A stretch of 64,000 nt of DNA from Bacillota bacterium (GTDB taxonomy: Bacteria > Bacillota > Negativicutes > Sporomusales > CTSoil-080). The notes under the pieces were generated by a model that worked only from the letters and a program-made list of their open reading frames with translations, was not told the origin of the DNA and did no database searches. Position 1 is the first letter of the stretch. Every line of letters begins with the position of its first letter. The stretch lies in contig JAGGAD010000003.1 of NCBI GenBank assembly GCA_017889625.1, forward strand, positions 1 through 64,000, read 5' to 3'. The translations under genes and the position numbers were made by a program. Of the stretch, positions 15,004 through 27,156 are shown piece by piece.

Positions 15004-15144
15004 ATGGCAAAACATATTACGACAATTAACAAGGGCACTCTGCAAAAAACGTTGCATACCGGCGGCTGTGGGGAATGTCAGGCTTCCTGCCAATCGGCTT
15101 GCAAGACGTCTTGCACCGTAGGCAATCAGGTCTGCGCGAAGTAG
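15004..15144 (+). CDS. scfA: SCIFF peptide precursor (six cysteines in forty-five residues)
   Basis: A 46-residue peptide with six Cys at 22, 25, 29, 33, 37 and 44. The core CQSACKTSCTVGNQ is the hallmark of the SCIFF family, a nearly universal RiPP-like peptide of Clostridia and relatives. In known members a radical SAM enzyme forms thioether bonds from Cys to neighbouring residues. The N-terminal MAKHITTINKGTLQKTL is the leader-like part. The ribosome binding site is very strong (GAGGAGGAG). The maturase follows after a terminator-like hairpin. The biological role of SCIFF is not established. Confidence 0.95.
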   Translation: MAKHITTINKGTLQKTLHTGGCGECQASCQSACKTSCTVGNQVCAK

Positions 15145-15155
15145 GCCAAAAACCA

Positions 15156-15192
15156 AAGTCCCCTCGCCATCGGCGACGGGACTTAATTTTTT
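15156..15192 (+). terminator. Hairpin terminator between SCIFF peptide and maturase
   Basis: AAGTCCC and TCGCC pair with GGCGA and GGGACTT around an ATC loop, followed by a T-run. It lies 12 bases after the peptide stop and 15 before the maturase start. It probably lets most transcripts end after the peptide gene so that substrate exceeds enzyme. Confidence 0.85.
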
Positions 15193-15206
15193 GAAAAAGG
15201 TGAAAT

Positions 15207-16565
15207 ATGACTATACATCGATTTTTTATTAATGGCCTCTATTTGGTTCTTGATATCAATAGTGGTGCACTCCATGTGGTGGATGAAATTGCCTATAAGG
15301 CGCTGGCACTATTTAATGGTGCTAATGATGACGAAGTAATAAACGAGCTCAGTGGTGAATTTGGTGTAACGGCGGTTCGTGAGGTTCTTGATGATCTTAA
15401 TGAGCTTAAAGACCAAGGGACGTTGTTTGCACCGGAAGTAACGACGCCGATAACATTTCGAGATAAGCCATTGGTTAAGTCACTGTGCTTGCATGTGGCC
15501 CATGATTGTAATTTGCGGTGTGGTTATTGTTTTGCTGGCACCGGTGATTTCGGGCATGACCGTAGCCTAATGCCTAAACAAGTAGCAGAACAAGCGGTAG
15601 ATTTTATCATTGATAACAGTGGCGGGCGAAAAAACTGTGAGTTGGACTTTTTCGGTGGTGAACCGCTTTTAAATATGGAAACGGTACGTCATACAGTCAG
15701 TTATGTTCGTAAACGTGAGGCTGAAACAGGAAAGGTCTTTAAACTGACTTTAACAACCAATGTTGCTCTTTTGACGGACAATATTATAGAGTACCTAAAT
15801 AGTGAGAATATAAGTGTAGTACTTAGTTTAGACGGACGGCGTGAAGTACATGATGCGATGCGGCCTTATGCCGATGGTTCCGGCAGTTTTGACAAAGTTG
15901 TGGCCCGAGCCAAAAAATTGGTAGCATCACGGCAAGGAGAGAACTATTATATGCGCGGCACATTTACAGCGCATAATCTGGACTTTGCTAATGATGTAGT
16001 AGCGATGACTGACATGGGCTTTAAACGGTTATCTGTTGAGCCAGTAGTTGCCAAAGATGAAGAGTATGCTTTAAAAGAAGAACATTTACCGGTGTTGTTT
16101 AAAGAATATGAGACGTTAGCCCAAGAATATCTTGCGCGGTGGCGGGCGGGAAAAGGTTTTGATTTCTTCCATTTTAATATTAATCTTGATAATGGCCCAT
16201 GTGTAGCAAAACGCTTAAGTGGTTGTGGCGCTGGCCATGAGTACTTCGCGGTGACGCCTGATGGTGATTTGTATCCTTGTCACCAGTTTGTTGGTCGTGA
16301 TGAGTATCTGCTTGGCAATGTTGTTGAAGGTATAAAGAAACCGCATATGCCAGAAAAATTTCGGCAGACTCATGTACTCAATAAAGATGAATGCCGGGAA
16401 TGTTGGGCACGGTTCTACTGTAGCGGTGGTTGCCATGCTAATGCTCAACTTTTTAATGGTACTATTGATAAGCCGTATAAAATTGGCTGTGAACTTCAAA
16501 AGAAGCGGTTAGAGTGTGCACTGATGATTCAGGCATGTTTGACCATGGACGGCGGGCGAAAATAG
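15207..16565 (+). CDS. scfB: SCIFF maturase, radical SAM/SPASM thioether-forming enzyme
   Basis: Radical SAM enzyme expected to install thioether crosslinks in the adjacent SCIFF peptide. The 452-residue protein begins with a small PqqD/RRE-like domain (about 1-90, LYLVLDINSGALHVVDE) that binds the leader. The radical SAM core has C101-x3-C105-x2-C108 (CNLRCGYC) and the SAM-binding FFGGEPLLN near 150. The C-terminal SPASM/auxiliary cluster region (about 340-445) has CGAGHEYFAVTPDGDLYPC and CRECWARFYCSGGC. ATG start after AAAAGGTGA. Confidence 0.95.
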   Translation: MTIHRFFINGLYLVLDINSGALHVVDEIAYKALALFNGANDDEVINELSGEFGVTAVREVLDDLNELKDQGTLFAPEVTTPITFRDKPLVKSLCLHVAHDCNLRCGYCFAGTGDFGHDRSLMPKQVAEQAVDFIIDNSGGRKNCELDFFGGEPLLNMETVRHTVSYVRKREAETGKVFKLTLTTNVALLTDNIIEYLNSENISVVLSLDGRREVHDAMRPYADGSGSFDKVVARAKKLVASRQGENYYMRGTFTAHNLDFANDVVAMTDMGFKRLSVEPVVAKDEEYALKEEHLPVLFKEYETLAQEYLARWRAGKGFDFFHFNINLDNGPCVAKRLSGCGAGHEYFAVTPDGDLYPCHQFVGRDEYLLGNVVEGIKKPHMPEKFRQTHVLNKDECRECWARFYCSGGCHANAQLFNGTIDKPYKIGCELQKKRLECALMIQACLTMDGGRK

Positions 16566-25518: not shown

Positions 25519-25560
25519 AAAAATGGTCTGTCGCATTAGTGCGACAGACCATTTTTTTAT
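25519..25560. terminator. Strong terminator at the end of the glycolytic operon
   Basis: AAAAAATGGTCTGTCGCA / TGCGACAGACCATTTTTT stem with a TTAG loop. Runs of A on one side and T on the other make it bidirectional. It also ends the - strand radical SAM/peptide unit that converges on eno. Confidence 0.93.
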
Positions 25561-25561
25561 T

Positions 25562-25696
25562 TTAGTACTCTATGGGCAGGTAGGTGTTTGGACCGGATGG
25601 AAAACCTTGTGATGAGTGGCGGCACCATTGTTGTCGGTAGGCCGGGGACAGGTAATATGGTGGGCAAAAGGGCAGACATGGGGGCGGTTTTATCAT
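25562..25696 (-). CDS. Candidate modified-peptide precursor: 44-residue Pro/Cys/Tyr-rich peptide
   Basis: A small frame whose ATG comes directly after the TAG of the radical SAM gene (TAG-ATG, zero spacing), with GGAAG about 15 bases upstream, so it should be translationally coupled. The 44 residues include PPPCLPFCPPYYLSP, a second part with Trp24 and Cys25, and a C-terminal GPNTYLPIEY. Composition is striking: ten Pro, three Cys, five Tyr and one Trp, with hardly any acidic residues. Peptide genes next to SPASM enzymes are often their substrates, so this is a candidate RiPP precursor. It could still be a fortuitous frame; there is no classical leader and no double-Gly site. Confidence 0.5.
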   Translation of the reverse strand: MIKPPPCLPFCPPYYLSPAYRQQWCRHSSQGFPSGPNTYLPIEY

Positions 25697-26992
25697 CTAT
25701 TTCTGGGTGCTTCCACTAGGGATGATTGAATTTACTATTGTTTCGCATAAAGTTCCATCTTTCCATTCTCCGGTATAGGGATTGTAAGAGCATTCGGAGG
25801 AACAGGCCAGCCAGCGCTTTTTAGTGTCGGAGCCTTGGGCTAACGGGCGGCAGTCGGTGCAGGCATAACGGTACTCACAGTGTTGGCACTTTTCAATTTT
25901 GTCTTTGGTAGTGTGCCAGCAGTCAGAAAGCAACGGTCCATTAAGTACTTCAGCAAGCGGGGTTTGTAAGATATTGCCGCAAATTTCACTGCGGGCAAAA
26001 ATACATGGAATGACATCGCCGCTAGCAGTAATGGCAATTTTTCCGCTTAGACAGCTATGTTGGCACTGGGCTTTGGCAAAGCTTATCGGATCGGTATAAA
26101 ATGGCGGTTTAATAGGCTGTTTAGCATAGGCGGTAGGCAATAAGGCATCATCTTCGCCGCGACCGGTAGGCCGGACAACGTCAGGGGGGGTTACTTCAAC
26201 ACCAAGGTTGGCGCATAATTTCATGATATGCTCAACTTCATATTCATTGGGTTTCATAATAATGGAGGCAATGCGCAGCGGGATACCGGATGCTAGCAAT
26301 TTGTTTATGGCGGTAAAGGTTTTGGTAAAGCTGCCTTCATTCAAGGTTATGGAGTCGTGTACAGCGGCGTTATCCGCGTAAATGGTTGTGGCAATATTTA
26401 CATTATAGTGTTTAAAGAAAGTGATATCATCATCATTAATTAGGGTTGCATTGGTAAAAATTTCAATAAAGTCGTATTTTTCATGATAGGCTTTTTCAAT
26501 TAATTCGCGCCAGCCTCGATAAAGAAGGGGTTCGCCGCCAATTAATTGGATGGCGCTTGCACCAGCTGTGCGAGCTTCGGTAATCAATTCAAGCCACCGT
26601 TTGTGATCGACGAGATCTGAACAAGACGTTGGTCCGCTAGTAGCGTAACAGTGAAGACACTGATTATTACATGAACTAGTCAGCTCCAACCAAATAAATT
26701 CAAGCTTTGGTGGATTGACAGGTGGAGTGGCCTCTTTTTTAGTGGGGCTGGGTTGATTAATAAAAAACGAGCCTAACCCCATTTCGGTAAGTCGATGCAA
26801 GAAATCTAAAAAAATTTGATCCTGTGGGGATTTAAAATCTAGAAGTTCTTCTAAGGCTTTAGCTCGGCAGGCGGTAAGGAGTCCTAAAGCCCCCTGATTA
26901 ATTGAGTGAACTTTTCCGGTTTGCAGGTTGTAGATGGCTCCGCGCTTCGCCCCTTCAACCAGCTTGCAGTAGTTTTGCAGCCGGTAATACAA
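25697..26992 (-). CDS. Radical SAM/SPASM peptide-modifying enzyme
   Basis: A 431-residue radical SAM protein. An N-terminal PqqD/RRE-like segment (about 1-80, IYNLQTGKVHSINQGALGLL) resembles the start of the SCIFF maturase and could bind a leader peptide. The core has C108-x3-C112-x2-C115 (CNNQCLHCY) and IQLIGGEPLLYRG for SAM binding. The C-terminal SPASM region has a Cys-rich set: CQHSCLSGKIAITASGDVIPC, CQHCEYRYACTDC, and a last CSSEC. The start is TTG after GGGGAGGG; no better in-frame start is seen. It runs opposite to the glycolytic genes and its end is fused to the small peptide frame. The exact reaction is unknown; thioether or C-C/C-O crosslinking would fit the fold. Confidence 0.88.
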   Translation of the reverse strand: MYYRLQNYCKLVEGAKRGAIYNLQTGKVHSINQGALGLLTACRAKALEELLDFKSPQDQIFLDFLHRLTEMGLGSFFINQPSPTKKEATPPVNPPKLEFIWLELTSSCNNQCLHCYATSGPTSCSDLVDHKRWLELITEARTAGASAIQLIGGEPLLYRGWRELIEKAYHEKYDFIEIFTNATLINDDDITFFKHYNVNIATTIYADNAAVHDSITLNEGSFTKTFTAINKLLASGIPLRIASIIMKPNEYEVEHIMKLCANLGVEVTPPDVVRPTGRGEDDALLPTAYAKQPIKPPFYTDPISFAKAQCQHSCLSGKIAITASGDVIPCIFARSEICGNILQTPLAEVLNGPLLSDCWHTTKDKIEKCQHCEYRYACTDCRPLAQGSDTKKRWLACSSECSYNPYTGEWKDGTLCETIVNSIIPSGSTQK

Positions 26993-27156
26993 TGTCAGCC
27001 CTCCCCTTATATTTTGCTACATAATATGCTTTAAAAAGGCAGTGGGTGCATTAATTGGTTAAAGTAAGGTGGGGAAGAATGATTGCTTTGCGGAGAATTA
27101 ATGTCAAGGATATTAAAATATCTCAAAACATGCCCTGAAAAAGACATATTATTATG
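26993..27156. other. Intergenic region between the radical SAM gene and tRNA-Gly
   Basis: On the - strand there is a TTGACA with a weak -10 (AATCAT) that could drive the radical SAM gene. On the + strand a 19-codon frame at 27079-27138 has a good ribosome binding site (AAGGTGGGGA); it encodes MIALRRINVKDIKISQNMP and then stops. It may be the broken start of a lost gene. Nothing else was recognised. Confidence 0.4.

Follow-up and report, generated by a model that had tools for sequence, protein, structure and literature searches.

The window analysed here, a whole stretch of 64,000 nucleotides from a bacterium of the Sporomusales, carries the gene of a conserved peptide-maturase-type radical SAM protein of spore-forming Negativicutes. 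Its candidate substrates, peptides with a core of C-x-P repeats, are encoded intact at unlinked loci of the same genome, and the short frame that directly follows the enzyme gene is, to judge from its alignment, a decayed member of the same precursor family. From the sequence comparisons described below, we regard it as fairly probable that these genes form a mother-cell RiPP system, in which the enzyme would act on these C-x-P peptides, whose destination is probably the spore coat.

The enzyme and its relatives

The enzyme gene lies at positions 25697 to 26992 on the reverse strand, begins with TTG and encodes 431 amino acids; a ribosome binding site, AAGGGGAGGG, can be read from the sequence at 26999 to 27008 on the same strand. 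A Pfam search recognizes a radical SAM domain (PF04055, 2.2e-15) and a SPASM domain (PF13186, 3.1e-8) and gives no PqqD match. The CX3CX2C motif that marks membership of the radical SAM proteins reads CNNQCLHC, and in an alignment of 29 orthologues all radical SAM and SPASM cysteines are invariant, among them C314, C330, C369, C372, C378, C381 and C401. In the AlphaFold model, whose SPASM half has low confidence (pLDDT below 50), the N-terminus is composed of four strands followed by three helices, the topology of an RRE. Alignment with CteB and SuiB also backs an RRE/PqqD-like fold for this region, the profile alignment with CteB beginning at residue 20. Pfam domains, model topology and these alignments bear out the original prediction of a SPASM radical SAM enzyme with an N-terminal PqqD/RRE-like domain. 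Its resemblance to a peptide maturase is likewise upheld, as an RRE/SPASM radical SAM protein is paired across the Negativicutes with a Pro/Cys-rich, in part also Tyr-rich, peptide just downstream. A selenocysteine in the enzyme was considered and rejected: the stops inside the matches are the enzyme's own stop, where the match or open frame runs on into the downstream precursor.

SkfB, CteB and SuiB are the best relatives of solved structure in the PDB, SkfB ranking first by both sequence and fold. The enzyme falls below every NCBIfam equivalog cut-off among its best matches and is a member of no NCBIfam maturase family tested. SkfB (6EFN) and CteB (5WGG), which form sactionine or thioether bonds, have the same order of RRE, radical SAM and SPASM domains; however, their precursors differ, the system described here has no linked exporter, and the enzyme scores 73.5 bits against a cut-off of 300 for SkfB (TIGR04403) and 77 against 850 for AlbA. 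The CXXX-repeat system (TIGR04115, TIGR04117) also joins repetitive Cys precursors to a radical SAM/SPASM enzyme, and one peptide from a distant locus (L120) matches TIGR04117 weakly (E 0.07). The enzyme is nevertheless not among the TIGR04115 matches in its own genome (cut-off 350 bits), and in its peptides the repeat keeps strictly to C-x-P and the leader has W-x-x-P-E. In the CefA/CefB system (NF038107) Cys residues are likewise spaced by about five and the maturase is a radical SAM/SPASM protein, but the enzyme reaches 31.9 bits where the CefB cut-off is 600. SCIFF and ScfB again combine a small Cys-rich peptide with a radical SAM maturase, and both partners differ from those considered here, TIGR03974 not being among the best 25 matches listed for the enzyme. 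Filing the enzyme under TIGR04115, NF038107, SkfB, AlbA or SCIFF was consequently ruled out by the scores. A true SCIFF pair is present in the window about 9 kb from the enzyme, at 15004 to 16565 on the forward strand, with a 46-residue, six-Cys precursor and a maturase scoring 625 bits with TIGR03974.

Radical SAM/SPASM maturases with Cys-repeat precursors are already known as a kind. Neither the strict C-x-P core nor the leader, the dispersed regulon or the link to sporulation turned up in the open-licence literature and family libraries searched. That literature gave nothing on point for the enzyme, C-x-P motifs, Sporomusa RiPPs or radical SAM proteins with spore coats, and an earlier description may exist elsewhere.

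Precursor peptides in the Negativicutes and beyond

Of 30 relatives, most have an intact gene for a Cys/Pro-rich peptide that follows the enzyme gene or is overlapped by its 3' end, usually in another frame. In Anaerospora hongkongensis and Propionispora the peptide gene is found upstream. The precursors are built of a short, strongly conserved leader with PKWExPEM, an acidic linker and repeats such as CNPRC or CFPRQ, and C-x-P holds for 747 of the 754 Cys residues in 54 distinct peptides. The comparison of synonymous and nonsynonymous substitutions suggested by the original prediction, run on intact precursors of species pairs, gave a dN/dS of 0.03-0.23 in 13 of 14 pairs, dS being saturated in the remaining one. 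In line with the original prediction, which could place the peptide in none of several precursor classes, the peptides match no NCBIfam or Pfam family above cut-off; an elgicin lantibiotic match of two precursors was below cut-off and was set aside as low-complexity chance.

A partner precursor that conserves both leader and core, as expected of a RiPP system, thus exists, and in the window's own genome its intact copies are all unlinked: three turn up on contigs C36, C70 and C27 (one of these copies being L036:1607-2029) in a search with a profile built from intact precursors. The same profile gives 1-11 matches in most relatives that carry the enzyme. Of 60 relatives, 40 have a strong orthologue (50-74% identity); the carriers include Sporomusa ovata, S. 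silvacetica, S. malonica, S. acidovorans, Pelosinus fermentans, P. propionicus, Lucifera butyrica, Anaerospora hongkongensis and Propionispora. Precursors are present in 38 of these 40 genomes and in one of the 20 lacking the enzyme (Fisher 2e-12, a figure inflated by shared ancestry); that single carrier has a paralogous enzyme. In the other 298 genomes of a phylum-wide sample neither enzyme orthologue nor precursors were detected. Outside the Negativicutes, Ruminiclostridium sufflavum (L110) has a 60% identical orthologue, probably acquired by horizontal transfer, with a short CPPSQC peptide upstream.

Ten loci were inspected for their neighbourhood and contain no conserved transporter, protease or immunity gene near the enzyme; the upstream neighbour is usually trigger factor and downstream lie enolase or other unrelated genes.

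Distant homologues, with about 29-38% identity, are found in Deltaproteobacteria, Patescibacteria, Bacteroidetes, Pleomorphomonas and Clostridia. A small C-x-P-rich peptide lies within 2.5 kb of the homologue in 17 of 23 loci (two of which are orthologues), compared with 11 of 230 shuffled controls (5%). Because the distant homologues mostly adjoin such peptides, the enzymes of this family probably recognize their substrates by the C-x-P signature, and the family is not intrinsically spore-related, since these homologues occur in non-sporulating phyla. In a Deltaproteobacterium (L111:3775-4299), a C-x-P peptide adjoining a distant homologue is fused to a peptidoglycan-binding domain. Paralogous enzymes with 32-37% identity were also observed (L076, L077, G004:C26:24250, G122 and G309). 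The paralogues of genomes G011 and G020 adjoin peptides with a KLTDESLDKVSGG leader, the G011 core being GCQPSWSPCEP, and a peptide of this type is probably an exported C-x-P product.

Promoter, sporulation and function of the peptides

Upstream of the enzyme gene lies a putative sigma-K-type promoter, CAC-N17-CATATTATGTA (27018 to 27048, reverse strand), with the -35 CAC at 27048-27046 and the -10 element at 27028-27018. This pattern has five matches in the genome and none when reversed as a control. CATATTATGTA is found, with at least 9 of 11 positions matching, upstream of the enzyme in 36 of 41 orthologues (29 exact), compared with 6% for a shuffled sequence. The 12-mer GCATATTATGTA has four sites in the genome, in front of the enzyme gene, of two precursors at unlinked loci and of a single further gene (L037:2215-2799, G000:C53), which encodes 194 amino acids with no Pfam match. 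The element precedes more precursors in other genomes. Most unlinked precursors match the -10 element at 10-11 of its 11 positions, and adjacent precursors match at chance level only, as expected if they are co-transcribed with the enzyme.

The sigma-K consensus comprises a -35 AC and, at sigma-K spacing, a -10 CATAnnnT (PMC3789822, PMC517825), while ATA replaces AC at -35 in sigma-E promoters (PMC3789822). Since the -10 elements of the two are nearly alike, the assignment rests on the AC, which stands exactly 17 nt upstream in 23 of 34 enzyme promoters and 12 of 19 precursor promoters; no ATA occurs at this position in either group, and a sigma-E promoter was rejected for lack of this element at the right distance. 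By sequence, therefore, -35, -10 and spacing agree with a sigma-K regulon, and the enzyme gene and the unlinked precursor genes share a promoter of predicted sigma-K type. A sigK gene is present in the genome and is interrupted by a skin-like element of about 5 kb with a 523-residue serine recombinase (G000:C71:15-5773, L165). The same promoter element is also found in front of genes for a DUF2935 protein, a very small hydrophobic protein with Cys, a 61-residue Cys-rich protein and a ferritin-like protein (L145, L146, L155 and L163), the first and the last of these in other genomes; all four are candidates for the same late sporulation regulon; the promoter thus marks a regulon and not the radical SAM/C-x-P system alone.

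The distribution of the enzyme follows sporulation. Among 200 Negativicutes, an orthologue (called at E<1e-100) is present in 44 genomes and SpoIVA in 47; 42 have both, two the enzyme only, five spoIVA only and 151 neither (Fisher 4e-35, again inflated by shared ancestry), so that 2 of 153 non-sporulators carry the enzyme. The pattern holds over about 18 sporulating families, and no listed non-sporulating family has the enzyme. Both enzyme and precursors are lacking in the sporulators G003, G032 and G050, and the system is thus dispensable.

As a working model, the mother cell would make the enzyme late in sporulation from the sigma-K-type promoter, and promoters of the same kind at other loci would yield precursors of roughly 80-160 residues. 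Each of these has a W[ED]xPE[IM]xxW leader and, beyond an acidic linker, 6-26 Cys-x-Pro repeats (CFPRQ, for example) as its core. Leader binding would fall to the N-terminal RRE and modification of the repeats to the radical SAM/SPASM centre, which would most likely join each Cys by a thioether to a residue close by in the same C-x-P unit. Thioether formation is what we infer from the SkfB/CteB-type relatives, and other radical crosslinks or epimerisation could take its place. Because no transporter gene is linked, the rigid cross-linked peptide would remain in the mother-cell cytosol and be built into the spore coat or an outer spore layer. Leader binding, modification, its chemistry and coat location are all what we infer from these comparisons. 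In the window's own genome, the adjacent precursor having decayed, the enzyme would serve the unlinked copies.

Two other functions were weighed, both improbable in our judgement. Firstly, the peptides might be exported signals or antimicrobials made at sporulation, like the sporulation killing factor; SkfB, which matures that factor, is the enzyme's nearest relative of solved structure. Moreover, the G011 and G020 paralogues adjoin peptides with double-Gly export-type leaders and partly similar cores. The main precursor family, however, has no double-Gly leader, no transporter, protease or immunity gene is conserved at the enzyme loci, there are several unlinked precursors per genome with up to 26 Cys, and the promoter type is late, after commitment to sporulation. 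Secondly, and to us equally doubtful, the peptides may be coat proteins acting through disulfides or metal binding, the enzyme having another substrate and merely sharing their regulon. Cys-rich coat and exosporium proteins are indeed common: CdeC and CotY/CotZ/ExsY, made during sporulation and probably structural, resemble the precursors in this respect, and the promoter serves other genes too. We know of no radical SAM partner and no C-x-P repeats for these proteins, however, and the precursors track the enzyme even within sporulators, as the three genomes devoid of both illustrate. Furthermore, the cis pairing is syntenic, the conserved leader is RiPP-like, and C-x-P peptides adjoin distant homologues in phyla that do not sporulate. 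Given the mother-cell promoter and the dispersed substrates, intracellular modification of coat peptides appears likeliest.

Somewhat more tentatively, we suggest a RiPP pathway dedicated to the endospore envelope of diderm Firmicutes, in which one mother-cell maturase would cross-link several unlinked C-x-P peptides into structural armour and not into an antibiotic, cofactor or signal, as part of a wider C-x-P enzyme family across several phyla. The spore coats of Negativicutes such as Sporomusa, Pelosinus and their relatives are largely uncharted, and unidentified low-complexity coat proteins are expected outside the well-studied bacilli (review, PMC3533761). If true, a maturase with a dispersed precursor regulon would mean that RiPP chemistry plays a structural part in development; it would also supply definite candidates for spore coat components and indicate that radical SAM enzymes directed at C-x-P form a family present in several phyla. 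The system is open to direct test in cultured Sporomusa ovata DSM 2662.

The decayed precursor beside the enzyme gene

As the original prediction described, the TAG stop of the enzyme is followed at once by the ATG of a 44-codon frame (25562 to 25696, reverse strand) that contains three Cys, ten Pro, five Tyr and one Trp. Its further suggestion, that this coupling lets the peptide be expressed with the enzyme, did not survive comparison with intact precursors, by which the frame is a nonsense-mutated and frame-shifted remnant of a precursor gene. A leader remnant, MRNNSKFNHP*WKHPEID, lies at 25698 to 25748 on the reverse strand (ATG at 25748-25746), overlapping the 3' end of the enzyme gene in a different frame. 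From its ATG and PKW motif it is collinear with the intact leaders MSEGSKYKPPKWQRPEL (L002) and MSNKGKSKRPKWEHPEV (L003) of the two nearest relatives, and a TAG at codon 11 (25718-25716) stands where the PKW motif has its conserved Lys. The best ungapped 51-nt match of these leaders falls exactly at the remnant (35/51 and 30/51), the next best scoring 27 and 23. The linker and first repeats have been deleted and the frame changed; the core remnant PPPCLPFCPPYYLSP, in which two of three Cys still stand in C-x-P, is shifted from its leader and now in the enzyme's frame. The zero spacing is therefore accidental, and the ATG, inside the former linker, fortuitous. At E<=0.01, a search with the intact-precursor profile misses this locus, although the same genome has three other matches. 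A stop and a frame shift beside an intact enzyme gene are what the prediction itself had named as counting against it, and this applies to the window copy.

Such lesions could in principle be assembly errors hiding an intact adjacent precursor, the genome being a draft of 113 contigs. We consider this very unlikely, as a nonsense error and a frame-changing deletion would be needed together, in addition to the loss of most Cys codons. Hardly credible is the idea that the 44-codon frame yields a functional peptide without a leader through stop-start coupling with the enzyme, an idea that the directly coupled ATG and the retained first core units would favour: the leader is missing, out of frame and interrupted by TAG, most C-x-P units are gone, several genomes with unlinked copies had no adjacent downstream precursor found, and we rejected it on the leader alignment and the ungapped leader match. 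The precursor beside the enzyme is also decayed in Sporomusa silvacetica, where the adjacent copy has lost its core, and the P. fermentans JBW45 copy contains a frame shift in its deposited sequence. Beyond the remnant in the window, an inverted repeat with a T run at 25520 to 25553, read from the sequence, is probably a terminator that also serves the convergent enolase gene.
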